Positions 19,333 through 54,858 of a stretch of DNA of 64,000 nucleotides are shown here, in pieces. Source of the DNA: an uncultured Kordia sp. Lineage in GTDB: Bacteria > Bacteroidota > Bacteroidia > Flavobacteriales > Flavobacteriaceae. Numbering within the stretch: position 1 is the stretch's first letter; the number at the start of each line of letters is the position of its first letter. The notes under the pieces were generated by a model, which saw nothing but the letters and a program-made list of their open reading frames with translations, made no database searches and was not told the origin of the DNA. The stretch covers positions 496,001-560,000 of the forward strand of contig NZ_CANLEA010000001.1 of NCBI RefSeq assembly GCF_947489565.1, given 5' to 3'. Made by a program: the position numbers and the translations under genes.

Positions 19333-19533
19333 TCAATCGTTTTGGCATAAGTCAGTAGGAACTTGATTGCACTTAGTTTTTGGTTTTGTCTTTGTGCCAC
19401 AACCAGCCGCAGAGGGAAATTCAAAACTTCCTCCAGTTGGATCTGTTCCTCCAGTAATTTCATCTAGTTTAACTAATGTTGCAATACTAATTTTTTGTAA
19501 CTCTAATTGCTTTTTTTCGTTTGTTTTACGCAT
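19333..19533 (-). CDS. GG-leader natural-product (lanthipeptide-like) precursor peptide
   Basis: A 66-residue peptide from the ATG at 19531-19533; an in-frame TTG two codons earlier is less likely. The leader reads KKQLELQKISIATLVKLDEITGG, given here in part as LELQKISIATL and DEITGG. This is the L-x-L-x-K-x-[ST]-I pattern with a double-glycine site seen in Bacteroidota class I lanthipeptide and related precursors. The core after GG has 37 residues with three Cys and many Thr/Ser. No lanthionine synthetase or C39 peptidase is adjacent. It is 119 bp downstream of a same-strand TPR-AraC regulator and convergent with an ABC/HlyD/TolC operon, which could export it (inference). Confidence 0.6.
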   Translation of the reverse strand: MRKTNEKKQLELQKISIATLVKLDEITGGTDPTGGSFEFPSAAGCGTKTKPKTKCNQVPTDLCQND

Positions 19534-40993: not shown

Positions 40994-42016
40994 ATGAATG
41001 ATAACTTAGACCCTACAAATCAGAACTATTCATCCGAAGAATTAGATGTTGAAAAAGCATTACGCCCACTATCCTTTGATGACTTTACTGGACAAGACCA
41101 AGTGCTAGAAAACCTGCAAGTATTTGTGCAGGCAGCTAATCTTCGTGATGATGCATTAGATCATACCTTATTTCATGGTCCTCCAGGATTAGGAAAAACA
41201 ACCTTGGCGCATATATTGGCAAATGAACTTGGAGCCAGCATCAAGGTAACTTCAGGACCTGTGTTGGACAAACCAGGCGACCTAGCAGGATTGTTAACCA
41301 ATCTTGATGAGCGTGATGTATTGTTTATTGATGAAATACACCGATTGAGTCCCATTGTAGAAGAATATTTGTATTCGGCAATGGAGGACTATAAGATTGA
41401 TATTATGATTGAATCTGGTCCGAATGCCAGAACCGTTCAAATCAATCTAAATCCTTTTACACTCGTTGGAGCAACTACACGCTCAGGTTTATTAACAGCG
41501 CCAATGCGAGCGCGATTTGGAATTGCAAGCCGATTGCAGTACTATTCAACAGAATTGTTGTCTACCATCGTACAACGTAGTGCGCAAATATTAAATGTTC
41601 CTATTAGTATGGAAGCAGCTATAGAAATTGCAGGAAGAAGTCGTGGAACACCTCGTATCGCCAACGCATTACTGCGTAGAGTGCGTGATTTTGCTCAAAT
41701 CAAAGGAAATGGTAGTATTGATATAGAAATAGCGCGTTTCAGTCTAAAAGCGCTAAATGTAGATGCTTATGGTTTGGATGAAATGGACAATAGAATTCTG
41801 TCAACGATTATAGATAAATTTAAAGGTGGTCCTGTTGGAATTACAACCTTAGCTACGGCAGTTTCTGAAAGTGGTGAAACCATTGAAGAAGTATATGAAC
41901 CATTTCTCATTCAACAAGGATTCATTATCCGAACACCTAGAGGAAGGGAAGTCACGGAACTTGCTTACAAACATCTCGGAAGAGTCAAAGGAGGTATTCA
42001 AGGAGGATTGTTTTGA
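40994..42016 (+). CDS. ruvB: Holliday junction DNA helicase RuvB
   Basis: A 340-residue AAA+ motor. It has Walker [13 protein letters not shown], Walker [11 protein letters not shown], sensor 1 GATTRSGLL, the arginine finger in APMRARFG, and the C-terminal winged-helix domain with [18 protein letters not shown]. RuvB drives branch migration of Holliday junctions with RuvA. RuvA is encoded about 12 kb away in the same window rather than next door. The gene lies alone behind the act-cox terminator. Confidence 0.97.
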
Positions 42017-42110
42017 AACGATAAATTATGAATGTTGAATTTTAAATGTAAAAGTGTTTTAGAACAGCGAATAACGAATTAACAAACAGACAAATTAGCC
42101 AATACCAAGC

Positions 42111-43448
42111 ATGTCATACAAATACCCAAATAAGATTCCGTTTTTCAAATTGTTTCTGAAATCATCTTCAATTACCAGAAATCCTATTCCGTTTCATAGA
42201 GATGGTTTTCAAAAACATGGGGATTCATTTGCAATTGCTCCGCCATTCTCAAAAAAAGTGATGTTAACGCGCGATGCTGAAATCACAAAACATCTGTTGC
42301 GAAAAAATCATCGGAATTATAACAAATCTAAAATTCAAACAAAATTCTTATCAAAGTACGTAGGGAAAGGTTTGTTGACGTCTAGTGGTGATTATTGGTT
42401 AAAACAACGACGACTCATTCAGCCAGCATTCCATAGAGAAAAGCTGCAAAAATTAGTCGCAATCATGGAAAGCACGATTGAAAAACAAATCGAAAACATT
42501 CCAGAAAATAAAAGCATTGATTCCTATCCAATCATGAACGAATTGGCGTTTCATGTGGTTGCAAAATCTTTATTTAATTACTCTTCAGACGATGATACCA
42601 TGCATCAGCTGCAGAAAATTATAGAAACTTTGCAGGAATTTATCATTCGTGAAATTCGACAACCACATAAAAAATGGTGGTATGAAGTAAGCGGTTTGGT
42701 AAAAAAACATTTAAAACTAGTAGAAAAAAGTCGCGAAATTATCAACAAAGTCATCGATGAACGCCGCGTATCTGATGCAACACATGATGATTTATTAGAC
42801 ATGTTGCTCAAAGCAAAATATGAAGATGATGGTACTTCTATGACCAATGAACAATTGATTGACGAAATCTTAATCTTCTTTGTGGCAGGACATGAAACTA
42901 CTGCAAATGCGCTGACATTTACATTTCATCTCATTGCTAAAAATCCAGAAGTCTATCAAAAAGTATTAAAAGAAATTGATGCTATAGATGATGGCTTACC
43001 GCCGATGGAAAAAATTGCAAAACTCAACTATGTAAAAAACTGCGTAGAAGAATCAATGCGATTGTATCCGCCAGCGTGGATTACGGATAGAGTTGCCATT
43101 GAAGACGATTCGTTTGCAGATTATGCTATTGAAAAAGGAACCATGATCGGAATTTCTTTTTACGAACTTCATAGAAATGAAAAATACTGGAAAAATCCGA
43201 ACGATTTTGTGCCAGAGCGTTTCTCTGACGAACATCGAAAAGAAACCGCAGGATTTTATTTTCCGTTTGGTGCAGGACCAAGAATGTGTATCGGAAATGG
43301 TTTTGCACTCTATGAAATGATGTTGTCGGTGTATGCAATGCTGAAAAAATATCACATAGAAACCGATCAAGAAAAAGTGGAAGTGTCGCCACTCATTACA
43401 CTAAAACCAATCAATCTTACGCTAAAATTTACAAAAAGAACTACTTGA
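42111..43448 (+). CDS. Cytochrome P450
   Basis: A 445-residue soluble P450. It shows the I-helix oxygen-activation motif [10 protein letters not shown], the K-helix ExxR in [11 protein letters not shown], the PERF-type segment [10 protein letters not shown], and the heme-binding loop [15 protein letters not shown] with Cys393. All catalytic features look intact. The substrate cannot be told from sequence; bacterial P450s of this CYP102/CYP4-like type often oxidise fatty acids or other lipids. No ferredoxin partner is adjacent. It overlaps the queG start by 4 bp. Confidence 0.93.
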
Positions 43449-44380
43449 ATTCAACACAAAAACATACAGAACTCATCAAAGCTGAGGCAAAACGCTTGGG
43501 TTTTCTGTCCTGTGGAATTTCAAAAGCAGCATTCTTAGAAGAAGAAGCGCCACGATTAGAGGCTTGGCTCAACAAAAACATGCATGGCGAAATGCAATAC
43601 ATGGAAAATCATTTTGACAAGCGACTCGATCCAACGAAATTAGTAGAAGATTCAAAATCGGTAGTGTCTTTACTCTTAAATTACTATCCATCAGAAATAC
43701 AAAAAGATTTAGCAGCGCCAAAAATTTCCAAATATGCTTATGGAACGGATTATCATTTTGTCATAAAAGATAAATTAAAACACTTGCTAAATTTCATTCA
43801 AGAGGAAATCGGAGAAGTCTCAGGAAGAGCATTTGTCGATTCTGCACCTGTATTAGACAAAGCTTGGGCGGCAAAAAGTGGTTTGGGTTGGATTGGAAAA
43901 CACAGCAATTTACTCACACAAAAAGTAGGTTCGTTTTATTTTATTGCGGAATTAATCATCGACTTGGAGTTAGAATACGATTCGCCAGTTACTGATCATT
44001 GCGGAAGTTGTACGGCGTGTATTGATGCCTGTCCGACACAAGCTATTGTAGATCCGTATGTAGTAGATGGAAGCAAATGTATCTCGTACTTTACCATTGA
44101 ATTAAAAAATGAAATTCCGACGCATGTACAAGGGCAATTTGACGATTGGATGTTTGGTTGCGATGTTTGTCAAGATGTATGTCCTTGGAATCGTTTCTCA
44201 AAGCCACACAATGAACCGTTGTTCAATCCGCATCCAGAATTGCTTTCTATGTCTAAAAAAGAATGGGAAGAAATTACGCAAGAAGTTTTTAGTGAAATCT
44301 TTCGGAAATCTGCTGTAAAGCGAACAAAATACACAGGGTTAATGCGTAATATTAAGTTTTTAAAAACAGAGAAGAAGTAA
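43445..44380 (+). CDS. queG: Epoxyqueuosine reductase QueG
   Basis: A 311-residue enzyme of the last step of queuosine synthesis, reducing epoxyqueuosine in tRNA with cobalamin and two [4Fe-4S] clusters. It shows [20 protein letters not shown] and the clusters [16 protein letters not shown] and [15 protein letters not shown]. The start is TTG at 43445-43447, overlapping the P450 stop (TTGA). The next ATG would remove the conserved N-terminal [14 protein letters not shown] segment, so TTG is preferred. Length fits short QueG proteins. The overlap implies translational coupling to the P450, though the two reactions are unrelated. Confidence 0.94.
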
Positions 44381-44386
44381 AATCCT

Positions 44387-44665
44387 ATGAAATTTGCTAG
44401 TCGAGACTTTAGAGAGGGACAAGAAAAACGTTTGAAAGAGAAGGTTTTTAATATAAAAATGAATCCTAGGGAATGGATGGCTAGATTTGGACACAATATT
44501 CTAGCTGGAGACATGAGGATGTATAAATATCAAGATCAGGAATTTGAAACTTGGATTCACAAAGCATTTGAAGCGTTAGCGAATGAAGGAATTGAAAACT
44601 TATGGGAAGAGTTTTTAACAGAAGAAGAGATTGAAAAGGTTAGAGAAATGTATGAAAACCCATAA
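44387..44665 (+). CDS. Small uncharacterised soluble protein
   Basis: A 92-residue acidic and basic mix (starts MKFASRDFREGQEKRLKEK) with no TM helix, signal peptide, Cys or known motif. It is rich in Trp (four) for its size, with WMARFG and ENLWEEFLTEEE as the most distinct segments. It lies 6 bp after queG, so it is probably in the same transcript. I do not recognise the family. Codon use looks like the neighbours, which supports a real gene. Confidence 0.6.
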   Translation: MKFASRDFREGQEKRLKEKVFNIKMNPREWMARFGHNILAGDMRMYKYQDQEFETWIHKAFEALANEGIENLWEEFLTEEEIEKVREMYENP

Positions 44666-44750
44666 ATAAAAGACTAATTAATAAGATAGAAGCAACGATT
44701 CTGCATTTTTAGCATCTAATAAAGAAAAGGCTATTCAGTACAGTCAATAA

Positions 44751-44820
44751 TATATTTGTCTTATGTACTGCGAAGAATTTTAACAAGGTTCGTTTTTCAT
44801 TAGCGAATTTCTTATGTTTG
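44751..44820 (+). promoter_or_regulatory. Two candidate -7 boxes upstream of the sensor kinase gene
   Basis: TATATTTG at 44751-44758 and TATGTTTG at 44813-44820 both fit TAnnTTTG, 111 and 49 bp before the ATG. Neither has a clear TTTG at 19-20 bp upstream, so which is used is open. Confidence 0.45.
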
Positions 44821-44869
44821 GTAAAAATATCGGCACGTATTTTTTTAATCTAATAAGAGAAATCTAAAA

Positions 44870-46738
44870 ATGATCTATTCTCCACGAAAAAATCCCCTAA
44901 TACTGCTGTCAATATTGATGCTGCTTATATTTTCATGTACAAAGCTAGATTCAAAACGAAGCTTTTCTGAAAAAATAGCGGAAGTCAAAAGACTAAGAGC
45001 GCTTGAGCGGAATATAGAAGCTAGTGATTCTACATTGATTTATATTGAGCAAATTCAAAAAATTATTGATAGCGATAAAAACCTGCCAGATTCATTATAC
45101 ATTGAAAACGTTTTTAGAAAAGGTGTGTATCATTATAAAAAGCAAGCATTAGATTCTGCTTCATACTATTATCATAAAACGGTTGATTTAGTGAAAGGAC
45201 CAAATACTAGAGACCGAAATCTAATTTATTTCTGGAATACGTGGATACTTGATCGAAGCCAAGATAGATTGGCAAATGTAATTGATGTGGCAAAAAAATT
45301 CGTAAAGATTTCGGATGAAAAAAAACATGCGTATGGTTTGACAATAGCCTATAATTTCTTGGAAGTTTCGTATTTCGTTTTAGGTAATTATGAGCAAGCT
45401 TGGTATTACAATAAGAAAGGATTGGAAGCTGCAAAAGCAAGTAATAATATGGATATGTACGTTGTTGCGGGAAATTCAAAAGCAAGAATGTTGTATAATC
45501 ATTTCAATAAAAAGCAAGAAGCTTTTGCATTTCTGGATAGTCTGCAAGTTGTGAAAACAACAAAAAAAGATACGCGAAGGCAGTATCTGCGTCAATATGG
45601 AACACTCAGTTTTGCAGATAAAAACTATAAAAAAGCAATTAAATATTATGATAGTGTCATTGCGCTTACAAAAGAAATAGAGAGTGGAAAGAATTATAAC
45701 TTATTAGAAGGCTATAATAACTTGGCAGAATCATATATAGAGTTGAAAGAATATGAATTAGCCGAGCGTTATTTAGATACTGTAAGTACTATTATTGATG
45801 AAAATTCTTTTACGGAATATGTTTCGTTTTATAATGAATTGCGTTTTCGGGTAAATTATGGCAAAGGAAATAGTGAAGAAAGCTTGCTTGAAGAATACAA
45901 AGCGCTCATTGATCGTCAAAATAAATTACATGAAGAAAAAATTGATGAAGAACTAGAATCATTAAAAAGAGCTAATGAACAAGAAAAAATAACAACGGCT
46001 GAAAAAAATGCATCTGAACAACGAAATATTATATTTATTTCATTATCTGTTCTTTTAGGTTTATTAGTAATCATTGTATATTTATTTTACAGACAAAGAC
46101 GTCTCAAATTCCAAAAACAAGACTTGCAAATGCAACAACGTTTATTGCGCTCTCAAATGAATCCGCATTTTACGTTCAATATCTTATCGGTAATTCAACA
46201 TCAAGTCAAAGAAAATCAAGAAAAAGCGGTAAACTATTTGCTGAAATTTTCAAGATTGTTACGATTGATTTTAGAGAATTCGTTACACAATTATGTGCAA
46301 ATAGAGGATGAATTAGAATCTTTACGTAAATACTTAGAACTGCAATTGATACGCTTTCCTAAAAAGTTTGACTATACCATTACACTAGAAAATTTTGAAG
46401 AAGATGAATTCCTATTTATCCCGCCAATGCTCATGCAACCGTTCATAGAAAATAGTATAGAACATGGTTTCTTAGGAATAGATTACAAAGGGAATATAGA
46501 TATAAAGCTACGATTGGAAGATAAATTTATAGCCTGTACCATAGAAGACAATGGTATTGGTATAAAAGAAACGAACAATACCTATAAAAAATCGGTTTCC
46601 ACAAAATTAATTTCAAAATTTATCAATAAAACAACTAAGAGTAACGTTCAGATACAAAATAAAACCAATACCGATGCATCCAATTCAGGAGTTTTGGTAA
46701 AGTTTCTAATTCCTTATAAATTTTCACAAGATGATTAA
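44870..46738 (+). CDS. TPR-containing LytS-type sensor histidine kinase, lipoprotein-like N terminus
   Basis: A 622-residue protein. The N terminus has a lipobox-like MLLIFSCTKL (Cys at about residue 23), then TPR-like repeats over residues about 60-340, one TM helix at about 385-405 (IIFISLSVLLGLLVIIVYLFY), a His-kinase domain with MNPHFTFNIL (His433), and an ATPase domain with PPMLMQPFIENSIEHG and IEDNGIGI. The TM helix plus outer TPR domain suggests sensing in the periplasm and signalling in the cytoplasm. It overlaps the next gene, a LytTR response regulator, by 8 bp and is its cognate kinase. Confidence 0.9.
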   Translation: MIYSPRKNPLILLSILMLLIFSCTKLDSKRSFSEKIAEVKRLRALERNIEASDSTLIYIEQIQKIIDSDKNLPDSLYIENVFRKGVYHYKKQALDSASYYYHKTVDLVKGPNTRDRNLIYFWNTWILDRSQDRLANVIDVAKKFVKISDEKKHAYGLTIAYNFLEVSYFVLGNYEQAWYYNKKGLEAAKASNNMDMYVVAGNSKARMLYNHFNKKQEAFAFLDSLQVVKTTKKDTRRQYLRQYGTLSFADKNYKKAIKYYDSVIALTKEIESGKNYNLLEGYNNLAESYIELKEYELAERYLDTVSTIIDENSFTEYVSFYNELRFRVNYGKGNSEESLLEEYKALIDRQNKLHEEKIDEELESLKRANEQEKITTAEKNASEQRNIIFISLSVLLGLLVIIVYLFYRQRRLKFQKQDLQMQQRLLRSQMNPHFTFNILSVIQHQVKENQEKAVNYLLKFSRLLRLILENSLHNYVQIEDELESLRKYLELQLIRFPKKFDYTITLENFEEDEFLFIPPMLMQPFIENSIEHGFLGIDYKGNIDIKLRLEDKFIACTIEDNGIGIKETNNTYKKSVSTKLISKFINKTTKSNVQIQNKTNTDASNSGVLVKFLIPYKFSQDD

Positions 46739-47486
46739 AGCCATATTAGTCGATGACGAATCTTACATTAGAGATAATGTTCGTCAAAAAATACAACAAT
46801 ATTTCAGTGAGGATATTGCAATTATTGGAGAAGCAGAAAGTGTGGAGCAAGCGGTAACGTTGATCAAAGAAAAAAGTCCAGATTTACTCTTTTTGGATAT
46901 TCAACTCACGGACGGAACTAGTTTTGATATCCTAGATCAAATAGAAGCCAACAATTTGGATATTATCTTCATTACAGGTTTTGATAAACATGCTATAAAA
47001 GCGATTAAAGTAGGCGCGTTAGATTATATGTTGAAGCCTATTGATGATGCTGAGTTTAAAGAAGCTGTTGAAAAGGCCATTGAAAGTTCTAAAAAGGAAA
47101 ATGATATGGAGAAATTAATAGAGATTTCTAGTGAATACTTTAAAGGTGTGCAAAAAAAGCGAATTGTCCTCAAAACCATGGAGAATGTATATGTCATCTA
47201 TGAAGATGATATTCTGTATTGCAGATCAGAAGGAAACTATACAACATTCTACACCTTACAATCTGAAAAAATATTAGTCTCTAAACCAATCAAAAAAGTG
47301 ATAGAAATTCTTTCAGAAGATGTATTTATCCGTTGTCATCAATCATACATCGTCAATAAAAAACATGTCTTACGATACAATCGACAAGGTGTACTCATTG
47401 TAAATCACGAAATAAAAGTGCCTGTGTCTAGTAGACGTAAAGATTATGTCATCGAAAAAATATTCGATCAAACGAATATGAAATAA
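46731..47486 (+). CDS. LytTR-family response regulator
   Basis: A 251-residue protein with a receiver domain (about 1-120; phospho-acceptor Asp56 in LLFLDIQLTDG, Thr and Lys positions FITGF and MLKPIDD) and a LytTR DNA-binding domain (about 145-248; VYVIYEDDILYCRSEGNYT and FIRCHQSYIVNKKHV). LytTR regulators bind pairs of short direct repeats upstream of the -35 or -33 region. The start lies inside the kinase gene end. Three later genes carry a related upstream box, the first of which overlaps this gene's own stop codon. Confidence 0.95.
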   Translation: MIKAILVDDESYIRDNVRQKIQQYFSEDIAIIGEAESVEQAVTLIKEKSPDLLFLDIQLTDGTSFDILDQIEANNLDIIFITGFDKHAIKAIKVGALDYMLKPIDDAEFKEAVEKAIESSKKENDMEKLIEISSEYFKGVQKKRIVLKTMENVYVIYEDDILYCRSEGNYTTFYTLQSEKILVSKPIKKVIEILSEDVFIRCHQSYIVNKKHVLRYNRQGVLIVNHEIKVPVSSRRKDYVIEKIFDQTNMK

Positions 47487-47501
47487 TAAACTACGTATTT
47501 G
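47471..47501 (+). promoter_or_regulatory. Box A, upstream of the 47581 lipoprotein gene
   Basis: AACGAATATGAAAT (47471-47484) followed by TACGTATTTG (47492-47501). The first part overlaps the last codons of the LytTR gene. A clean -7 box, TAAATTTG, lies at 47554-47561, 20 bp before the ATG at 47581. The same elements occur at boxes B and C. Confidence 0.6.
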
Positions 47502-47580
47502 AATAAGAATAAAGCGAATCTGAAACTTCCCTAGTAAAAGATATTTAGCTTCTTAAATTTGATATAAAAAACAAAAAAAC

Positions 47581-48339
47581 ATGAAAAATTCACTAAAACT
47601 AATTGCATTAGTATTCATTTTTAGTTTTTCTTCTTGTGGTACAGAAGAATTAACGGAAACAAACACAGAAACACAATCCAGTATTGCTAAATCACTCACT
47701 GAGATAGAAGATATACGCTTGCATAACCTAATGGAATGGACCGGATATTTAGCTTCGCAAGTAGGTTTGAATAGCAATTTGGGACGAACTCAACTTCTCA
47801 ATGCATACAACGCTGGTTCTGGAAGTGTGTCATTATCAGATTTGCTTGAAGTTTCAGATCAATCTTTTAAAAAAGCTTTAAAAATTGAATTTTATAGATA
47901 TATTCTTACTCCTTCTTGTGTAAGTGATGGGCGTCCAAAAGATCACCCTACACCACCAGAATTACCAGGGCATCCAAACTATCAACATGGATCTTGGATT
48001 TTTGAATACGGAGATCCAAATGCAACAGAAGAAGAAATTAATGAAGAAAGATTTGAGCAATACTTAGGACTTATTTTAGAAGAAAACTGCTTAGAAATTT
48101 ACTTCCCTAATGGATTCAGTATGCCAATAAGAAATATCAAATCTTCTGCGCATCCTTTAGTAGATCAAAATTTTAATAATGAAGCGTATAAGCATGTCGC
48201 TGAATGTAATATTAGTGAAACAAATGTTACTAGTGGAACAGTAGGGAATATTATCATTGTAAGACCAAGCAGAAGTTTTCGCGATACCAACTGTACGTAT
48301 ACTCAATTTGATTTTGACTTTACAGATTTCTTAAATTAA
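47581..48339 (+). CDS. Uncharacterised lipoprotein
   Basis: A 252-residue protein with a clear lipoprotein leader (VFIFSFSSCGTEEL, Cys at about residue 19). A short Thr/Glu-rich stretch follows, then a domain I do not recognise, with conserved-looking PTPPELPGHPNYQHGSW and FEQYLGLILEENCLEIYFPNG. Three Cys after the lipid anchor (in SCVSDG, NCLEIY and ECNISE or NCTYTQ regions) may form disulfides. It is the first gene after the kinase/regulator pair and carries box A upstream. A strong terminator follows. Confidence 0.75.
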   Translation: MKNSLKLIALVFIFSFSSCGTEELTETNTETQSSIAKSLTEIEDIRLHNLMEWTGYLASQVGLNSNLGRTQLLNAYNAGSGSVSLSDLLEVSDQSFKKALKIEFYRYILTPSCVSDGRPKDHPTPPELPGHPNYQHGSWIFEYGDPNATEEEINEERFEQYLGLILEENCLEIYFPNGFSMPIRNIKSSAHPLVDQNFNNEAYKHVAECNISETNVTSGTVGNIIIVRPSRSFRDTNCTYTQFDFDFTDFLN

Positions 48340-48361
48340 CGCTAATAAAATATTAATTAAC

Positions 48362-48393
48362 AACCTCCTGATACATTTCAGGAGGTTTTTTTA
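48362..48393 (+). terminator. Terminator after the lipoprotein gene
   Basis: A 10-bp stem (AACCTCCTGA at 48362-48371 with TCAGGAGGTT at 48378-48387), T run. Confidence 0.93.
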
Positions 48394-48412
48394 TGAGTGA
48401 TTTTTAAAACGA

Positions 48413-48458
48413 AACGAATATGAAATAAAGTAATGCGCTTTTGTATTCTGTATTGTGA
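48413..48458 (+). promoter_or_regulatory. Box B, upstream of the fibre-like gene
   Basis: AACGAATATGAAAT (48413-48426) then TTTGTATTCTGTATTGTGA (48440-48458), 70 bp from its start to the ATG at 48510. The second element is identical to that in box C. A weak -7-like TAGTTTG lies at 48470-48476. Confidence 0.65.
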
Positions 48459-48509
48459 AAGCTTCTAAATAGTTTGATTTTTAACAAATTAACTGTTAAA
48501 AAACACATT

Positions 48510-49367
48510 ATGAAAAAATTAGTAGTAGTAGCAATCTTTATGCTGTCAACAGTCGCAACCTTTGCGCAATGGAACGGAAGTGCAACGGTAGATGGAACTA
48601 TTTACAGAAACGGAAATGTAGGTATCGGAACATCATTAGCCAATAAAATGTTGACGATACATCCGCCAAGTGATTTTAGCGGACATTTTTTAGCCATGGG
48701 GAAATTGGTAAATTCTAAAAAAGGAACTAGACTCTTTAATTTTGGATCGTCTAATTCAAGTGATCCTTCATCAGGTTTTTCTTTTTACAACATGAACAAT
48801 CAATTGAGCTTAGATTATTTATCTAAATCAGATAGAACGTACTTAACTCTAAATGATTATAATGGGAATAATATCTTCAAAACCTCTGTAAGTACTATTG
48901 GATTCGCATACATTCATTTGCCAAAATTAGATTCGCGTGTAGTCATCGGAGATTATGCAAGCTATTTGGAAAATGAAAATCACAAATTAATTGTAAAACA
49001 AGGAAGTGCAAAAATTGAAGGAAACATTCTAACAGACGCAAATGTTGGTATTGGGACAAACTCATTCACAGATGGTTCTGATACGTATCGTTTATCTGTG
49101 GATGGAAAAGTGCGAGCAACAGCCGTAAAAGTATATACAGACTGGGCTGATTATGTTTTTGAGTCAGATTACAACTTGCCAACACTTAAAGAAGTAGAAG
49201 CATATATTGCTAAAAACGGTCATTTAAAAGACATTCCAAGCGCCAAAGAAGTAGAAGAAAACGGAATTGACGTTGGAGAAATGAACAAGTTGCTACTGCA
49301 AAAAATAGAAGAGTTGACTTTATATGTGATAGCGTTGAAAAAAGAGGTAGAAGAACTTAAAAAGTAA
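48510..49367 (+). CDS. Fibre-like exported protein (GNVGIGT repeats)
   Basis: A 285-residue protein from the ATG at 48510; an ATG at 48474 upstream would add 12 residues before the signal peptide. The leader MKKLVVVAIFMLSTVATFAQ is typical. Two GNVGIGT or NVGIGTNS segments and a C-terminal region WADYVFESDYNLPTLKEVE with a coiled-coil tail (MNKLLLQKIEELTLYVIALK) match the tail-fibre-like exported proteins common in Flavobacteriaceae. The C-terminal part may form a trimeric stalk. It lies 4 bp before the subtilase gene and shares its transcript. No phage genes are near. Confidence 0.75.
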   Translation: MKKLVVVAIFMLSTVATFAQWNGSATVDGTIYRNGNVGIGTSLANKMLTIHPPSDFSGHFLAMGKLVNSKKGTRLFNFGSSNSSDPSSGFSFYNMNNQLSLDYLSKSDRTYLTLNDYNGNNIFKTSVSTIGFAYIHLPKLDSRVVIGDYASYLENENHKLIVKQGSAKIEGNILTDANVGIGTNSFTDGSDTYRLSVDGKVRATAVKVYTDWADYVFESDYNLPTLKEVEAYIAKNGHLKDIPSAKEVEENGIDVGEMNKLLLQKIEELTLYVIALKKEVEELKK

Positions 49368-49371
49368 GATT

Positions 49372-51342
49372 ATGAATGTAAATAAAATAATATTTACCTT
49401 TTTTATTTTATTCTCTTTTGGTGTATTAAAATCAAGTGCGCAAACATACGAATACTATGTAAAAGAAGCTAAGGTTGGTAGTATAACTGATAATCTTTAC
49501 AGAGATACGGATAACACGCTTAAATATAAAGGGAACGATAAAAAAATAAAAGAATTTTTTGAGACTTATAGTATTTACAAATTTGAAACAGCATTTCCAA
49601 GTGCTCCAAAAGATTGGACTAAGGTTGTAGATGTTATAACACTTACATCAGATTCTAATAAAATTGAAGAAGGAATACGTAAATCTGTAGGCAATGCTTT
49701 GTTGCTATTAGAGTTTAGGGGCGAAGTAAAAAAAGATGAAAATGTACTGTGTTACTACCCAAATGATTATGGTGTTACAGGAGGTGCTAATACTGGGCTG
49801 CCTGTAGATGTTTCATATTATGACTATACAGAAGTTCCGGATGCATGGGATATTACTACAGGTGATCCAAATGTTATTATTGGTATTTCTGATGGAGATG
49901 TGCATGAGAACGATGTGGAATTTGCAGGTAAAACAGTAGATTTAACTCCAAATAATAATACATCTAGTAGTCATGGTAATGGTGTTGCTGCAATCGCAGC
50001 AGCTCAAGGAGATAACGGAGCAGGAACTGTAGGTGTAGGGTATGATTGTAGTATGGTAACTATTTACTTTGAAAGTAGTGGTACTTTAGGATATGAAAAT
50101 TTAATACAGCTACATCAACAAGGAGCTAGAGTTATTAACTGTAGCTGGGCCGGACCAGAAACAGGTTATAGTGCATATCATCAATATATTATCAATCAAA
50201 TTACCGCAGCAGGTACGGTTATTGTTGGTGCTTCCGGAAACTATGATCAAGAAAATAATAATTATAACATACGTTATCCAGCAGCGTATGATAATGTTAT
50301 TTCTGTGGGAGGTGTTGGTTATATTAATGATTTTGATTGTAGTAATGTGTATACAACAGCCGCAGGGAATCCTGCAATGTCTAATGTCAAAGATGTTGTT
50401 GGTTTGTCTTTAGGTTTTTCAAATAATACTGCAGACTGTAGTGAGCCTCTAGAAAATCAAGCTTTTATATACGAGGTATCTACAGGTGTTTTAAATGAAA
50501 AAGTAGATCTTGTTGCCCCAGCTGGAAATATTTTTAGATATGGAAGGTACTTAGAAACAGGTAATTTAGAATATTCACAATTTAATGGTGTTCGTACTTC
50601 GTCATCGGCGCCACAGGTAACAGGTGCGGTAGGACTTATGTATTCTTTAAATGAATGCTTATCTTTTGGGGAAATAGAATCTATTTTAAAAATAACATCA
50701 AAATATATAGGAGATGTTGGTCCTAATGCGGCTTATGAAAATAAGTATGGATCTGGTACACTCAATACAGGAAAAGCAGTCAAGCTAACACATAACTTAA
50801 TGACTCCATTGTCAAATGCTTATCTTGAAAATCAAAAATTTAACCGATGGGATTTTGTGTTTGAAGGCGTATCTAGGAATATCATCATGAGGAATCAAGA
50901 ATTTACAGGATCATCCAGAGTGCATGTCACTGGAAAAAATGCAATCAAACTAGAACCAGGAACACTATTAGAACCTAATGCCAATGGTGAAGCCGAATTT
51001 GTAATTGATCCAAATCTTAACTTAACAGATCATTGTATTACGCCAACTATAATGCCGAGTCCAAGAGCTAGCAACAAACAAACGGAAGAACAAGCGCTTT
51101 ATCAAATGCTGCCAACATTAGTTGAGAACGAAATCAAACTAGAAAATAAAATTTCTAAAAAACCACTCATCTCTAAAATTTCTATTCATAATCTTTTTGG
51201 ACGAAAAGTATTTAATAAAGACAATATAGGTACTTCAGATATTACATTGCAGGTGTCGCAATTAGTCCCAGGAATATACATCCTAAAAGGATATTGCAAA
51301 ACAGGAGAAGAAATCTTTACTTCAAAATTTGTAAAACAATAA
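49372..51342 (+). CDS. Secreted subtilisin-like (S8) peptidase with T9SS type A sorting domain
   Basis: A 656-residue protein with a signal peptide (to about SSAQ), an S8 catalytic domain at about 140-470, and a C-terminal T9SS type A sorting domain at about 575-656 (ISKISIHNLFGRKVF to GYCKTGEEIFTSKF). The triad can be placed: Asp174 in IGISDGD, His201 in SHGNGVAAIA, and Ser410 in RTSSSAPQVTG, with the oxyanion Asn in VGASGNYD. The usual GTS motif is RTS, a mild deviation. It would be exported by T9SS (SprA is encoded in this window) and act at the surface. It is co-transcribed with the fibre-like gene. Confidence 0.9.
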   Translation: MNVNKIIFTFFILFSFGVLKSSAQTYEYYVKEAKVGSITDNLYRDTDNTLKYKGNDKKIKEFFETYSIYKFETAFPSAPKDWTKVVDVITLTSDSNKIEEGIRKSVGNALLLLEFRGEVKKDENVLCYYPNDYGVTGGANTGLPVDVSYYDYTEVPDAWDITTGDPNVIIGISDGDVHENDVEFAGKTVDLTPNNNTSSSHGNGVAAIAAAQGDNGAGTVGVGYDCSMVTIYFESSGTLGYENLIQLHQQGARVINCSWAGPETGYSAYHQYIINQITAAGTVIVGASGNYDQENNNYNIRYPAAYDNVISVGGVGYINDFDCSNVYTTAAGNPAMSNVKDVVGLSLGFSNNTADCSEPLENQAFIYEVSTGVLNEKVDLVAPAGNIFRYGRYLETGNLEYSQFNGVRTSSSAPQVTGAVGLMYSLNECLSFGEIESILKITSKYIGDVGPNAAYENKYGSGTLNTGKAVKLTHNLMTPLSNAYLENQKFNRWDFVFEGVSRNIIMRNQEFTGSSRVHVTGKNAIKLEPGTLLEPNANGEAEFVIDPNLNLTDHCITPTIMPSPRASNKQTEEQALYQMLPTLVENEIKLENKISKKPLISKISIHNLFGRKVFNKDNIGTSDITLQVSQLVPGIYILKGYCKTGEEIFTSKFVKQ

Positions 51343-51373
51343 TTACTACTGTAATTAAACCAATAATAGTATT

Positions 51374-51411
51374 AAAAAGCCTTATGAAACATTTCATAAG
51401 GCTTTTTTTAT
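51374..51411 (+). terminator. Terminator after the subtilase gene
   Basis: A 16-bp stem (51374-51389 with its complement from 51392), 2-nt loop, T run. It ends before box C. Confidence 0.95.
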
Positions 51412-51421
51412 TTGAATATAA

Positions 51422-51467
51422 AACGAATATGAAATTGATCAATACGTATTTGTATTCTGTATTGTGA
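51422..51467 (+). promoter_or_regulatory. Box C, upstream of the GG-leader peptide gene
   Basis: AACGAATATGAAAT (51422-51435) then TTTGTATTCTGTATTGTGA (51449-51467), 71 bp before the ATG at 51520. It lies directly after a terminator, so the peptide has its own promoter. Inside it GTATTTG and GTATTGTG lie 13 bp apart as an imperfect direct repeat. Confidence 0.65.
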
Positions 51468-51519
51468 GAGTAGACAAATAATAGGATTTTTATATAAATA
51501 ATAATTTAAAAAATACACT

Positions 51520-51702
51520 ATGAAAAAAAGAAATTTAAAATTGAATTTAGGAAAAAAGAGTATTTCAAGTTTTACATCTAATGAAGTAACTGGTGGAGGA
51601 AGAACTACAAGAGCATGTACTGTAATTGGTTGTTCTCAAGGTTGTGATGCTGGTGATACTGTTCAAACACTAAATAACGCTTCTGTTTGTATATGTAGGT
51701 AA
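51520..51702 (+). CDS. Cys-rich GG-leader (class I lanthipeptide-like) precursor peptide
   Basis: A 60-residue peptide. The leader has the flavobacterial lanthipeptide pattern: KLNLGKKSISSF followed by NEVTGGG. The core after the Gly run has five Cys (in RACTV, IGCSQGC and VCIC) and seven Ser/Thr, so thioether or disulfide rings are possible. No lanthionine synthetase or transporter is adjacent. It carries box C upstream and follows a T9SS subtilase gene. It is missed by long-ORF methods because of its size. The assignment rests on the leader pattern and core composition. Confidence 0.7.
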   Translation: MKKRNLKLNLGKKSISSFTSNEVTGGGRTTRACTVIGCSQGCDAGDTVQTLNNASVCICR

Positions 51703-51788
51703 TTCAGGTGCTATTCTGCAAATTAAAAATTTCAAACTATCAAATAAATTAACGGGGGAAAGATTAATTTAGGGTAGTTTGTATTATT

Positions 51789-51826
51789 AAAAGGTCATAG
51801 AAATTAACATACTATGACCTTTTTTC
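51789..51826 (+). terminator. Terminator before maeB
   Basis: A 12-bp stem (AAAAGGTCATAG at 51789-51800 with CTATGACCTTTT from 51812), T run; it closes the peptide transcript. Confidence 0.9.
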
Positions 51827-51851
51827 TTACTTTCCTTTCTCGCAAAAACGC

Positions 51852-51859
51852 TACATTTG
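51852..51859 (+). promoter_or_regulatory. -7 box of maeB
   Basis: TACATTTG followed by C, 24 bp before the maeB ATG at 51883. The -33 part is weak. Confidence 0.6.
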
Positions 51860-51882
51860 CATTTCGTATCTAAAGAAAATAT

Positions 51883-54180
51883 ATGAGTAACACAGAACGC
51901 AAAAGGAGAGAAGCGCTAGTATATCATGCTAAACCAACGCCAGGAAAAATTAAAGTAGTTCCTACAAAAAGATATTCTACGCAACGTGATTTATCTTTAG
52001 CGTATTCCCCGGGAGTTGCAGAACCTTGTTTAGAAATAGAAAAGGACAAAAAAAATGTCTACAAATATACCACCAAAGGAAACCTAGTAGCGGTCATCTC
52101 TAACGGAACGGCGGTTTTAGGTTTAGGTGATATTGGTCCGGAAGCATCCAAACCAGTTATGGAAGGAAAAGGGTTGCTCTTTAAAATCTTTGCCGATATC
52201 GATGTTTTTGATATTGAAGTAGATACGAAAGATGTAGATCAATTCATTGAAACGGTAAAAAATATTGCACCAACTTTTGGAGGAATCAATCTCGAAGACA
52301 TCAAAGCACCAGAAGCATTTGAAATAGAACGCAGACTGATAGAAGAACTCGATATTCCTGTCATGCACGATGATCAGCATGGAACGGCAATTATCTCTTC
52401 TGCAGCATTAATCAATGCCTTAGAATTGGCCGAAAAAAACATAGAAGAAGTGCGCTTTGTAGTATCAGGCGCAGGTTCAGCAGCCGTTTCTTGTATGAAT
52501 TTATACATAGCACTTGGCGCAAAACTTGAAAACATTGCTATGTTTGATGTAGATGGTTTATTACATAAAAATCGAACAGATTTATCACCAATGCAAGCGC
52601 GTTTCAGAACGTCAAAACACTATGATTCACTTGCAGATGCAATGAAAGATGCAGATGTGTTTTTAGGACTTTCTGTCGGGAATATTGTGTCGCAAGATAT
52701 GTTGCGCTCTATGGCAAACAATCCAATTGTATTTGCCATGGCAAATCCGACGCCAGAGATTTCTTATGAAGAAGCCATTACATCGCGTGATGATATTATT
52801 ATGGCTACTGGTCGTTCAGATCATCCAAATCAAGTAAACAATGTACTTGGTTTTCCATTCATCTTCCGCGGTGCACTAGATGTACGCGCAACGAAGATCA
52901 ATGAAGAAATGAAAATGGCAGCAGTAAAAGCTATTGCAGCATTGGCAAAAGAACCAGTTCCAGAGCAAGTAAATATTGCCTACGCAGAAACGAAACTGGC
53001 GTTTGGAAAAGAATACATCATTCCAAAACCATTTGACCCAAGACTCATTGCAAAAATTCCACCAGCCATTGCAAAAGCTGCGATGGAATCTGGAGTAGCA
53101 ACCGAACCAATAGAAGATTGGGCGCGTTATGAAGATGAGCTTTTACACAGACTTGGAGCAGACAATAAAATCATACGATTATTACATAAAAGAGCACGTA
53201 CGAATCCAAAACGTATTGTTTTTGCAGAATCCGATCACCTAGATGTACTCAAAGCGGCACAATATGTATACGATGAGCGCATTGCAATTCCAATTCTTTT
53301 AGGAAATGAAAAACTCATTCACGAACTCAGAGACGAATTAGAATTTGATGGCGATGTAGAAATCATTGATCCAAAAAGTGATGAACAAGCCGAAAGACGT
53401 GATAAATTTGCTGAAATTTATTGGGAATCCAGAAAACGTAAAGGCGTAACGTTCATTGATGCGCAAAAGAAAATGCGCGAGCGTAACTACTTTGCAGCTA
53501 TGTTGGTGAATGATGGATATGCAGATGGACTCATCTCAGGATATTCTAGAAGTTATCCAACAGTCGTAAAACCAATGCTAGAACTTATAGGAACGGCAAA
53601 AGGTGTGCGAAAAGCAGCGACCACAAACTTAATGATTACTGAACGCGGACCAATATTCTTATCAGATACATCAATCAATATAGAACCGTCTGCGCGAGAT
53701 TTGGCAAAAATTGCACAAATGACAGCATTAACGGTAAAAATGTTTGGACTAGAGCCAAATATTGCGATGTTATCGTACTCTAACTTTGGTTCTTCTGAAC
53801 ACGAAAATGCTAAAAAAGTAGGAGAAGCTGTTCAATACTTACACAGATATTATCCAGATATTAATGTAGATGGTGCAGTACAATCAGATTTTGCGTTGAA
53901 CCGCGAAATGCTTTCAGAAAAATTTCCTTTCTCTAAACTAGCAGGGAAAGAAGTTAATACTTTAGTCTTTCCAAACTTAGATTCAGCAAACATTACCTAC
54001 AAACTCATGAAGGAGTTAAACAAAGCTGATTCTATTGGGCCAATCATGTTAGGAATGCGAAAACCAGTGCACATTTTACAGCTTGGTGCAAGCGTTGATG
54101 AAATGATTAATATGGCAGCAGTAGCTGTGGTAGATGCGCAGGAAAAAGAAAAGTGGGAACAACGAAAAGGAGAATTATAA
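51883..54180 (+). CDS. maeB: NADP-dependent malic enzyme with C-terminal phosphotransacetylase-like domain
   Basis: A 765-residue protein. The N-terminal malic enzyme part (about 1-430) has [23 protein letters not shown] in part as [22 protein letters not shown], the nucleotide site [12 protein letters not shown], and [16 protein letters not shown]. The C-terminal part (about 440-765) resembles phosphate acetyltransferase ([21 protein letters not shown]), which is a regulatory acetyl-CoA sensor in MaeB rather than a catalyst. It makes pyruvate and NADPH from malate. Size is normal for the fused MaeB type. Confidence 0.94.
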
Positions 54181-54245
54181 TAAACAACTATACAAGATTA
54201 GTATATTAAAGGAGCGAATGGTTAAATTAATGTGAATAAATTTAT

Positions 54246-54253
54246 TACATTTG
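54246..54253 (+). promoter_or_regulatory. -7 box of the ruvA-sprA unit
   Basis: TACATTTG, 23 bp before the ruvA ATG. GTTAAA is present about 20 bp upstream but is a poor -33 match. Confidence 0.5.
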
Positions 54254-54276
54254 GGACTTTAACTAGTAAATAATAG

Positions 54277-54858
54277 ATGATTACTCATATACAAGGGAAG
54301 CTCGTAGAGAAAAATCCAACAGATGTAGTGATAGAATGTAATGGAGTCGGATACTTTATCAATATCTCGCTAACTACCTATACGCAACTTCCAAATCAAG
54401 AAAACATAAAACTGTACACGCATCTTCATGTTCGTGAAGACGCACATACACTTTATGGATTCTTTCAAAAAGCTGAGCGTGCTATATTTCGTTTGCTAAT
54501 TTCAGTTTCTGGAATAGGAACAAGTACGGCGCGTACAATGTTATCTTCTTTGTCTTCCCAGCAAATATGTGAAGCAATTGGCTCTGGAGATGTAGCAACT
54601 GTTCAAAGTGTAAAAGGAATTGGAGCGAAGACTGCACAGCGCGTAATCATCGAATTAAAGGATAAAATCTTAAAATTATACGATCTTGACGAAGTTTCGA
54701 TGTCTCAAAGCAATACAAACAAAGAAGAAACGTTATCTGCTTTGGAAGTATTAGGTTACACAAGAAAGCAATCTGAAAAAGTACTCGATAAAATAATTAA
54801 AGAAATGCCAAACGGAAGTGTAGAGGAATTGATCAAAATGGCATTAAAAAACTTATAA
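54277..54858 (+). CDS. ruvA: Holliday junction branch migration protein RuvA
   Basis: A 193-residue protein with three domains: an OB fold (about 1-65, MITHIQGKLVEKNPTDVVIE), two helix-hairpin-helix motifs (about 70-140, LISVSGIGTSTARTML and SVKGIGAKTAQRVIIEL), and a C-terminal helical domain that binds RuvB (about 145-193). It holds the junction while RuvB, encoded at 41 kb, turns. It precedes sprA by 5 bp; this ruvA-sprA order is seen in other Flavobacteriaceae. Confidence 0.95.
   Translation: MITHIQGKLVEKNPTDVVIECNGVGYFINISLTTYTQLPNQENIKLYTHLHVREDAHTLYGFFQKAERAIFRLLISVSGIGTSTARTMLSSLSSQQICEAIGSGDVATVQSVKGIGAKTAQRVIIELKDKILKLYDLDEVSMSQSNTNKEETLSALEVLGYTRKQSEKVLDKIIKEMPNGSVEELIKMALKNL

Follow-up and report, generated by a model that had tools for sequence, protein, structure and literature searches.

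The 64,000-nt stretch analyzed here (hereafter, the window), taken from contig NZ_CANLEA010000001.1 of an uncultured Kordia species, harbors a sensor histidine kinase gene followed by genes for a LytTR-type response regulator, a lipoprotein, a secreted fiber-like protein, a subtilase and a double-glycine (GG)-leader peptide precursor (Table 1). An earlier note on this DNA had reported that the 14-mer AACGAATATGAAAT recurs upstream of three ATGs (47581, 48510 and 51520), defining boxes A, B and C, and that a 19-bp element, TTTGTATTCTGTATTGTGA, follows it at B and C and persists in part at A. These observations were reproduced. In the window, exact copies of the 14-mer begin at 47471, 48413 and 51422 and are absent elsewhere, the distances to the ATGs are as claimed and box A overlaps the last codons and stop codon of the regulator gene; the 19-bp element is found only at 48440 and 51449, and the partial element TACGTATTTG is common to A and C. 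With up to two mismatches, the window contains 7 matches to the 14-mer against a shuffle mean of 2.3, and the 19-bp element has an expected count of 0.07 with up to three mismatches. Across the whole 6.42-Mb genome, exact matches to the combined two-part pattern are boxes A, B and C only. Overlooked in the earlier note was that the 14-mer represents unit 1 of a direct repeat with a 21-bp period (unit consensus ACGAATATGAA), of which box A carries three units and boxes B and C two each. The 19-bp element consists of the tail of the second unit, a spacer and a TTG at a fixed promoter offset.

The same repeat emerged de novo from related loci. Motif discovery was performed by expectation maximization with a width of 32, set after the 21-bp repeat had been seen, and with every 32-mer as seed. 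The training set comprised 27 of 33 gaps between regulator and lipoprotein genes, the four Kordia loci (the window included) and gaps of 39 and 49 bp having been dropped. The resulting motif,.CgaATaTGAAat...t....aCgaataTGAA, reached a log-likelihood ratio of 267.9, compared with 90.6-99.6 in six shuffled sets. Applied to the window, this non-Kordia matrix ranked box A (28.7 bits), box C (24.6 bits), units 2-3 of box A (21.0 bits) and box B (21.0 bits) at the top, the fifth-best score being 12.2 bits. A site of at least 16 bits lies upstream of the lipoprotein gene at 29 of 36 loci, and 595 kb of locus DNA contains 54 sites of at least 16 bits and 38 of at least 20 bits (overlapping registers included), against 0-6 and 0, respectively, in 20 Markov simulations. 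The 21-bp period of the motif fits by sequence the published form of LytTR sites, described in the excerpted text of PMC4847170 as a pair of repeats, direct or inverse, that are each 9-11 nt long and are separated by 11-13 nt.

The genes adjoining box A form a recurrent cassette. Kinase and regulator genes adjoin the lipoprotein gene at 34 of the 36 distinct lipoprotein loci, distributed over the Flavobacteriaceae and Saprospiraceae. One of the two exceptions, L087, lies at the edge of a contig and has a fragment of a regulator gene. The other, L081:7779-8666 in genome G121, is an orphan lipoprotein gene with a 20.9-bit site and no adjacent kinase or regulator gene; elsewhere in G121 the regulator-lipoprotein gap is, unlike this orphan locus, without a box. 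The lipoprotein profile has strong matches (E < 1e-7) in 17 of 397 family genomes, and it also identified 15 named loci in Kordia, Altibacter, Tenacibaculum, Gilvibacter, Dokdonia, Saprospiraceae and other Flavobacteriaceae bins, and the window lipoprotein reached the cut-off of no Pfam or NCBIfam family and was assigned no fold. It is the most constant putative target, and would most simply be a feedback component, an immunity protein or a surface partner of the sensor.

The window regulator has both receiver and LytTR domains above cut-off, as expected of a LytTR response regulator. In the inferred tree, a branch with support 98/89 separates 33 cassette regulators from 26 other LytTR regulators, and the regulators of genomes G386 and G219 are nearest to that of the window. 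Regulators 57-62% identical to it are present in genomes G022, G005 and G002 and in a paralogous cassette of the window's own genome, all other regulator matches among those listed for 40 genomes being at most 41% identical; these loci and the window each combine a kinase and a regulator with one or more lipoproteins and with small peptides whose leader is of the GG type or resembles it. The window kinase belongs with the LytS-like/His_kinase sensor kinases by its PF06580 match (5.3e-19) and also matches TPR_12 (6.4e-9), its HATPase_c match being under cut-off. Its Cys23 is invariant among 14 aligned kinases, and 32 of 34 kinases have a Cys within residues 13-45, in a mostly lipobox-like context. 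Past residue 40, each of the 34 has one hydrophobic region, which in 32 kinases lies around residues 370-415, and the structure model of the window kinase shows helix pairs over residues 32-332 and then one long helix at 336-430. We infer that the kinase is a lipid-anchored periplasmic TPR sensor.

To map the box beyond the window, we used a profile (R1) of 41 sites, none of them from the window's genome; site alignment A5 omits in-register duplicates and window-genome sites and keeps those of other Kordia species (L041, L042). Ten sites in the 6.4-Mb genome score at least 17.6 bits (27.6-17.6), in the order A, C7:60781, B, C, C1:246707, C21:45744, C26:9923, C9:117494, C1:432673 and C5:129477. 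Five of the seven non-window sites (C7, C26, C9, C1:432673 and C5) lie 62-113 bp before small GG-leader-type peptide genes, a label that is a reading of their sequences, NCBIfam matches being below cut-off or absent, and the C21 site lies 100 bp before a gene for a leucine-rich type IX secretion system (T9SS) protein. Even if the genome had 200 such genes, chance would place a random site in the 100-bp upstream stretch of one of them, in the correct orientation, in roughly 1 of 600 cases. The next hits are a 17.2-bit site inside a gene and a 17.0-bit site at a peptide of the paralogous cassette. The genome has 88 matches to the leader family NF038153 at E up to 0.1; the 30 best other leader peptides have no site of at least 14 bits within 260 bp upstream (scores -8.7 to 5.0), so the box is not general to leader-peptide genes. 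Two boxed peptides encoded on different contigs of this genome, L168:6480-6719 (minus strand) and L177:5576-5767 (plus strand), have in common the core stretch TTDPGEIGPCTE, and a boxed peptide of Kordia aestuariivivens (L041:10034-10243) carries a similar CGTTDP stretch.

In relatives, boxes precede lipoproteins, peptides, VKOR-thioredoxin/exporter operons and secreted proteins. That the box would mark lipoprotein and GG-leader genes elsewhere, as the earlier note had envisaged, is thus borne out both in the window's own genome and in related ones. Non-lipoprotein sites in locus DNA are mostly found 60-135 bp before the target gene, with three exceptions: L039:8085 lies inside a gene, L101:8802 is 318 bp before the callable start, and L039:6710 is followed only after 365 bp by a metallopeptidase gene. 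At eight loci the cassette continues with a VKOR-thioredoxin protein and peptides, and seven of these also contain homologs of both the C39 ABC exporter and the HlyD protein of L040. Among 28 other genomes, the best hits range from 18.6 to 30.3 bits in the 14 with the cassette, some of them training sites, and do not exceed 20.3 bits in the 14 that lack a close regulator. Boxes not used in training were found before a relative of the window's fiber-like protein (G344), a protein weakly matching a T9SS tail (G386), an exporter with GG peptides (G219) and a GG peptide (G714). At the G219 site (L174:6613-12200), the box precedes an ABC exporter whose start is C39-like, together with GG peptides and an ATP-grasp protein with an MvdD-like pre-ATP-grasp match just below the Pfam cut-off; this cluster is possibly of the graspetide type. 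The window's own genome has a single detected homolog of the VKOR-thioredoxin protein, C16:15913-17439 (36% identity). Its N-terminal part overlaps with a match to C39 peptidase (28 bits, cut-off 22), and no box hit of at least 13 bits lies nearby.

Promoters behind the box differ between lipoprotein genes and the remaining targets. We compared 29 lipoprotein and 25 other promoters, hand-picked from the relatives' site list plus seven further sites and omitting the weaker or later hits L172, L174, L175, L178 and L179. A third repeat unit (at least 7 of 10 positions) is present in 23/29 lipoprotein promoters, against a background of 15%, and in 1/25 of the others. The Bacteroidota promoter consensus comprises a -33 TTG and a -7 TAnnTTTG. 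The latter, at five or more of its six positions, is found 50/51 bases past the 32-mer in 17/29 lipoprotein promoters, the next-best offset pair accounting for 6/29, while a TTG exactly 7 bases past the 32-mer occurs in 18/25 non-lipoprotein and 1/29 lipoprotein promoters. Two promoter layouts can be distinguished on this basis, one for lipoprotein genes, with three units, a recognizable -7 element and no -33 TTG, and another for cargo genes, with two units followed by a TTG at a fixed distance. Box A conforms to the former and boxes B and C to the latter.

The cargo itself is variable. The fiber-like and subtilase genes, separated by 4 bp, probably form an operon, and a relative of the fiber-like protein is encoded directly 3' of the lipoprotein gene in L095. 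The window peptide falls short of the class I lanthipeptide leader family (NF038153, 13.6 bits against a cut-off of 22), and the one LanB dehydratase of the genome (C2:166694) is on a contig other than the window's. A further small open reading frame of GG-leader appearance, at 19333-19533 on the minus strand, has no box among the window's top 12 motif hits. The neighborhood of the cassette (40994-54858 in the window; loci L103 and L107) comprises queG, kinase, regulator, lipoprotein, maeB and ruvA. In genomes G386 and G219 the cassette is likewise surrounded by queG and maeB-ruvA; G386 (L103) also has ruvB and a full P450 gene, and in G219 the P450 match is partial and ruvB has no match within its stretch. 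Both syntenic loci lack the fiber-subtilase-peptide block, which is variable cargo at a conserved address, boxes B and C having come or gone with it.

Table 1. Features of the cassette, its boxes and its cargo in the window (position 1 is the first base of the 64,000-nt stretch).
Feature	Position	Strand	Basis
Sensor histidine kinase	44870..46738	+	Lipobox-like Cys23 near the N-terminus; TPR region; single hydrophobic segment at 383-410; His_kinase; weak HATPase_c
LytTR-type response regulator (receiver + LytTR domain)	46731..47486	+	Pfam PF00072 2.3e-19, PF04397 2e-16
Box A unit 1	47471..47484	+	Overlaps last codons and stop of regulator gene; 28.7 bits by position weight matrix (PWM)
Box A unit 2	47492..47504	+	21 bp after unit 1
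Box A unit 3	47513..47526	+	42 bp after unit 1; units 2-3 score 21.0 bits
TAAATTTG, candidate -7 element of lipoprotein gene	47554..47561	+	TAnnTTTG offset; Bacteroidota consensus
Cassette-family lipoprotein, C-terminal DFTDFL motif	47581..48339	+	Family alignments
Box B unit 1	48413..48426	+	Exact 14-mer; PWM match
Box B unit 2 (TGCGCTTTTG)	48434..48443	+	21.0 bits
TTG, candidate -33 element (box B)	48453..48455	+	Inside 19-bp element; fixed cargo-promoter offset
Secreted fiber-like protein, first gene of unit B	48510..49367	+	Boxed relative in G344 (L173), 30% identity
Subtilase carrying a T9SS sorting domain (unit B, second gene)	49372..51342	+	PF00082 3.3e-28; TIGR04183 over cut-off
Box C unit 1	51422..51435	+	Exact 14-mer; PWM match
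Box C unit 2 (TACGTATTTG)	51443..51452	+	24.6 bits
TTG, candidate -33 element (box C)	51462..51464	+	Fixed cargo-promoter offset
60-aa GG-leader peptide precursor with five Cys past the GG	51520..51702	+	Weak NF038153 match

What the sequences show directly is the operator motif, how it is conserved, that it occurs together with the regulator and which genes lie behind it. On these grounds, it is highly probable that the neighboring kinase/regulator pair controls, most likely by activation, a dispersed LytTR regulon of peptides and secreted proteins through 21-bp-spaced repeats. The earlier note had proposed a regulon of three units under the pair at 44.9-47.5 kb; the assignment to this pair is supported, whereas the regulon is larger than proposed. 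In the phosphorelay that we infer, a trigger acting on the lipid-anchored periplasmic TPR sensor would lead to phosphorylation of the LytTR regulator, which would then bind the direct repeats just upstream of target promoters and most likely activate them. Its targets would be the adjoining lipoprotein gene, genes for GG-leader peptides of the bacteriocin type or that of ribosomally synthesized and post-translationally modified peptides across the chromosome, and some secreted (T9SS) proteins. Because the boxes fit the published LytTR site form, the neighboring regulator probably binds them, and its effect is probably activation. Several observations weigh against this interpretation. No clear -7 element was seen in the 25 cargo promoters, and seven of the 36 lipoprotein loci (L059, L087, L092, L093, L095, L097 and L098) lack an upstream site of at least 16 bits. 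In the window's own genome, the C1:246707 site lies 365 bp before the nearest gene, encoding a T9SS M43 metallopeptidase, and hits of 17.2 bits or less were, by the checks made, mostly inside genes or without a near gene. Among the other genomes, G003, which has no close regulator, reaches its 20.3 bits by chance, and two cassette genomes peak at only 18.6 and 19.2 bits. The regulators of three of the seven siteless loci (L093, L095 and L097) branch outside the main regulator group. At L093 a different repeat (GCACCTACAAATTAG...) precedes both lipoprotein genes, and at L095, whose regulator is sister to that of L093, a similar GTACACCTAC is found before the fiber-like gene; the divergence of sites under these sister regulators suggests that box and regulator have co-diverged.

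Peptide quorum sensing proper, with a boxed GG peptide acting as the pheromone of the TPR kinase as in Gram-positive Blp/Pln-type systems, would account for the presence of the box before GG peptides and exporter operons, and LytTR sites are reported to drive bacteriocin genes in Streptococcus mutans (excerpted text of PMC6193735). We nevertheless regard it as unlikely. The cores of boxed peptides differ, and as none of these peptides was seen to recur throughout the cassettes, there is no support for a dedicated pheromone; many cassettes had no peptide within about 8 kb in a filter-based scan, the constant partner is the lipoprotein, and the kinase combines a TPR region with a single hydrophobic segment, departing from the polytopic build of pheromone receptors. 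The repeats might instead serve repression, as sequence alone cannot give the direction of regulation, a point that also tells against the activation proposed here. Repression appears rather improbable, given that the TTG at a fixed short distance past the repeats in 18/25 cargo promoters, present in only 1/29 lipoprotein promoters, can be likened to activating LytTR promoters of S. mutans, where repeats with 11-12-bp spacers are found 4-11 bp before the -35 element (same excerpts).

Binding of the box by another LytTR regulator of the genome would be conceivable through cross-binding, with 61 own-genome matches to the regulator protein (some maybe receiver-only), a number that likewise speaks against the neighboring regulator, and with a paralog on contig C15 that has its own cassette and a related box. 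The box, however, adjoins this particular regulator subfamily in several genera, and the best hits in genomes without a close regulator stay at or below 20.3 bits, against 18.6-30.3 bits in those with the cassette, making this alternative quite improbable. Least credible is a general promoter element or RNA leader of small secreted-peptide genes. Boxes do lie 60-110 bp before gene starts, and box A folds somewhat better than its shuffles (z -2.4, against -1.1 and -1.0 for B and C). This explanation is nonetheless largely contradicted and extremely improbable, for the upstream regions of the 30 other leader-peptide genes do not exceed 5.0 bits, there is no match in Rfam, hairpin pairing between units is not above shuffles (70.4% vs. 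69.0%, 92/500; covariation score reached by 36/500) and the box A repeats lie upstream of the likely -7 element.

The control proposed here, by the neighboring kinase/regulator pair, has its closest parallel in the LytTR two-component regulons of bacteriocins and peptides in the Firmicutes, of the Blp, Pln and ComDE type. As in those, a LytTR regulator is associated with direct repeats of about 21 bp before GG-leader peptide genes and with some C39-type exporters, and GG-leader peptides lie behind the box, their control being read from the box. The differences are that the kinase here is a TPR protein of lipoprotein-like type with a single hydrophobic segment, that a lipoprotein is the constant, presumably co-regulated partner, that T9SS proteins are among the predicted targets and that the box is another one; no constant pheromone gene was found among the cassettes. 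The system would work like the Gram-positive LytTR peptide regulons, minus their receptor kinase and with a constant lipoprotein and T9SS targets added. The sensor of the Escherichia coli YpdA/YpdB system differs from the window kinase, and bacteroidetocins, like the peptides considered here, have GG leaders. The LytTR Regulatory System, which pairs its regulator with a membrane inhibitor and has no kinase, was considered and set aside, the window having a receiver-domain regulator and a kinase. YpdA/YpdB also uses a LytTR response regulator, with two 10-bp direct repeats and an 11-bp spacer, but has the single target yhjX and responds to pyruvate (excerpted text of PMC4847170). In HdrRM/BrsRM of S. 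mutans, LytTR direct repeats of 9 bp with a 12-bp spacer similarly drive bacteriocin genes, under a LytTR protein with a membrane inhibitor instead of a receiver-domain regulator with a kinase (excerpts of PMC6193735). Bacteroidetocin loci likewise encode antibacterial peptides of Bacteroidetes, and the main text of their description contains no two-component, histidine kinase, LytTR or lipoprotein terms (PMC6671954).

No description of the cassette or box was found in searches of open-licence papers. To our knowledge, no switch has been described for the dozens of GG-leader peptides of this genome. The lipid-anchored TPR kinase and the constant lipoprotein might, as a tentative possibility, constitute a new form of envelope-spanning peptide or competitor sensing in Bacteroidota, with one operator switching a chromosome-wide arsenal of peptides and secreted proteins and the lipoprotein as its receptor, immunity or feedback part, in what would be a Gram-negative counterpart of bacteriocin quorum sensing. 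The finding provides a specific operator that can be scanned for, a likely regulator and a short list of targets across several genera, which make it possible to test directly how these peptides are expressed and what the unassigned lipoprotein family does.

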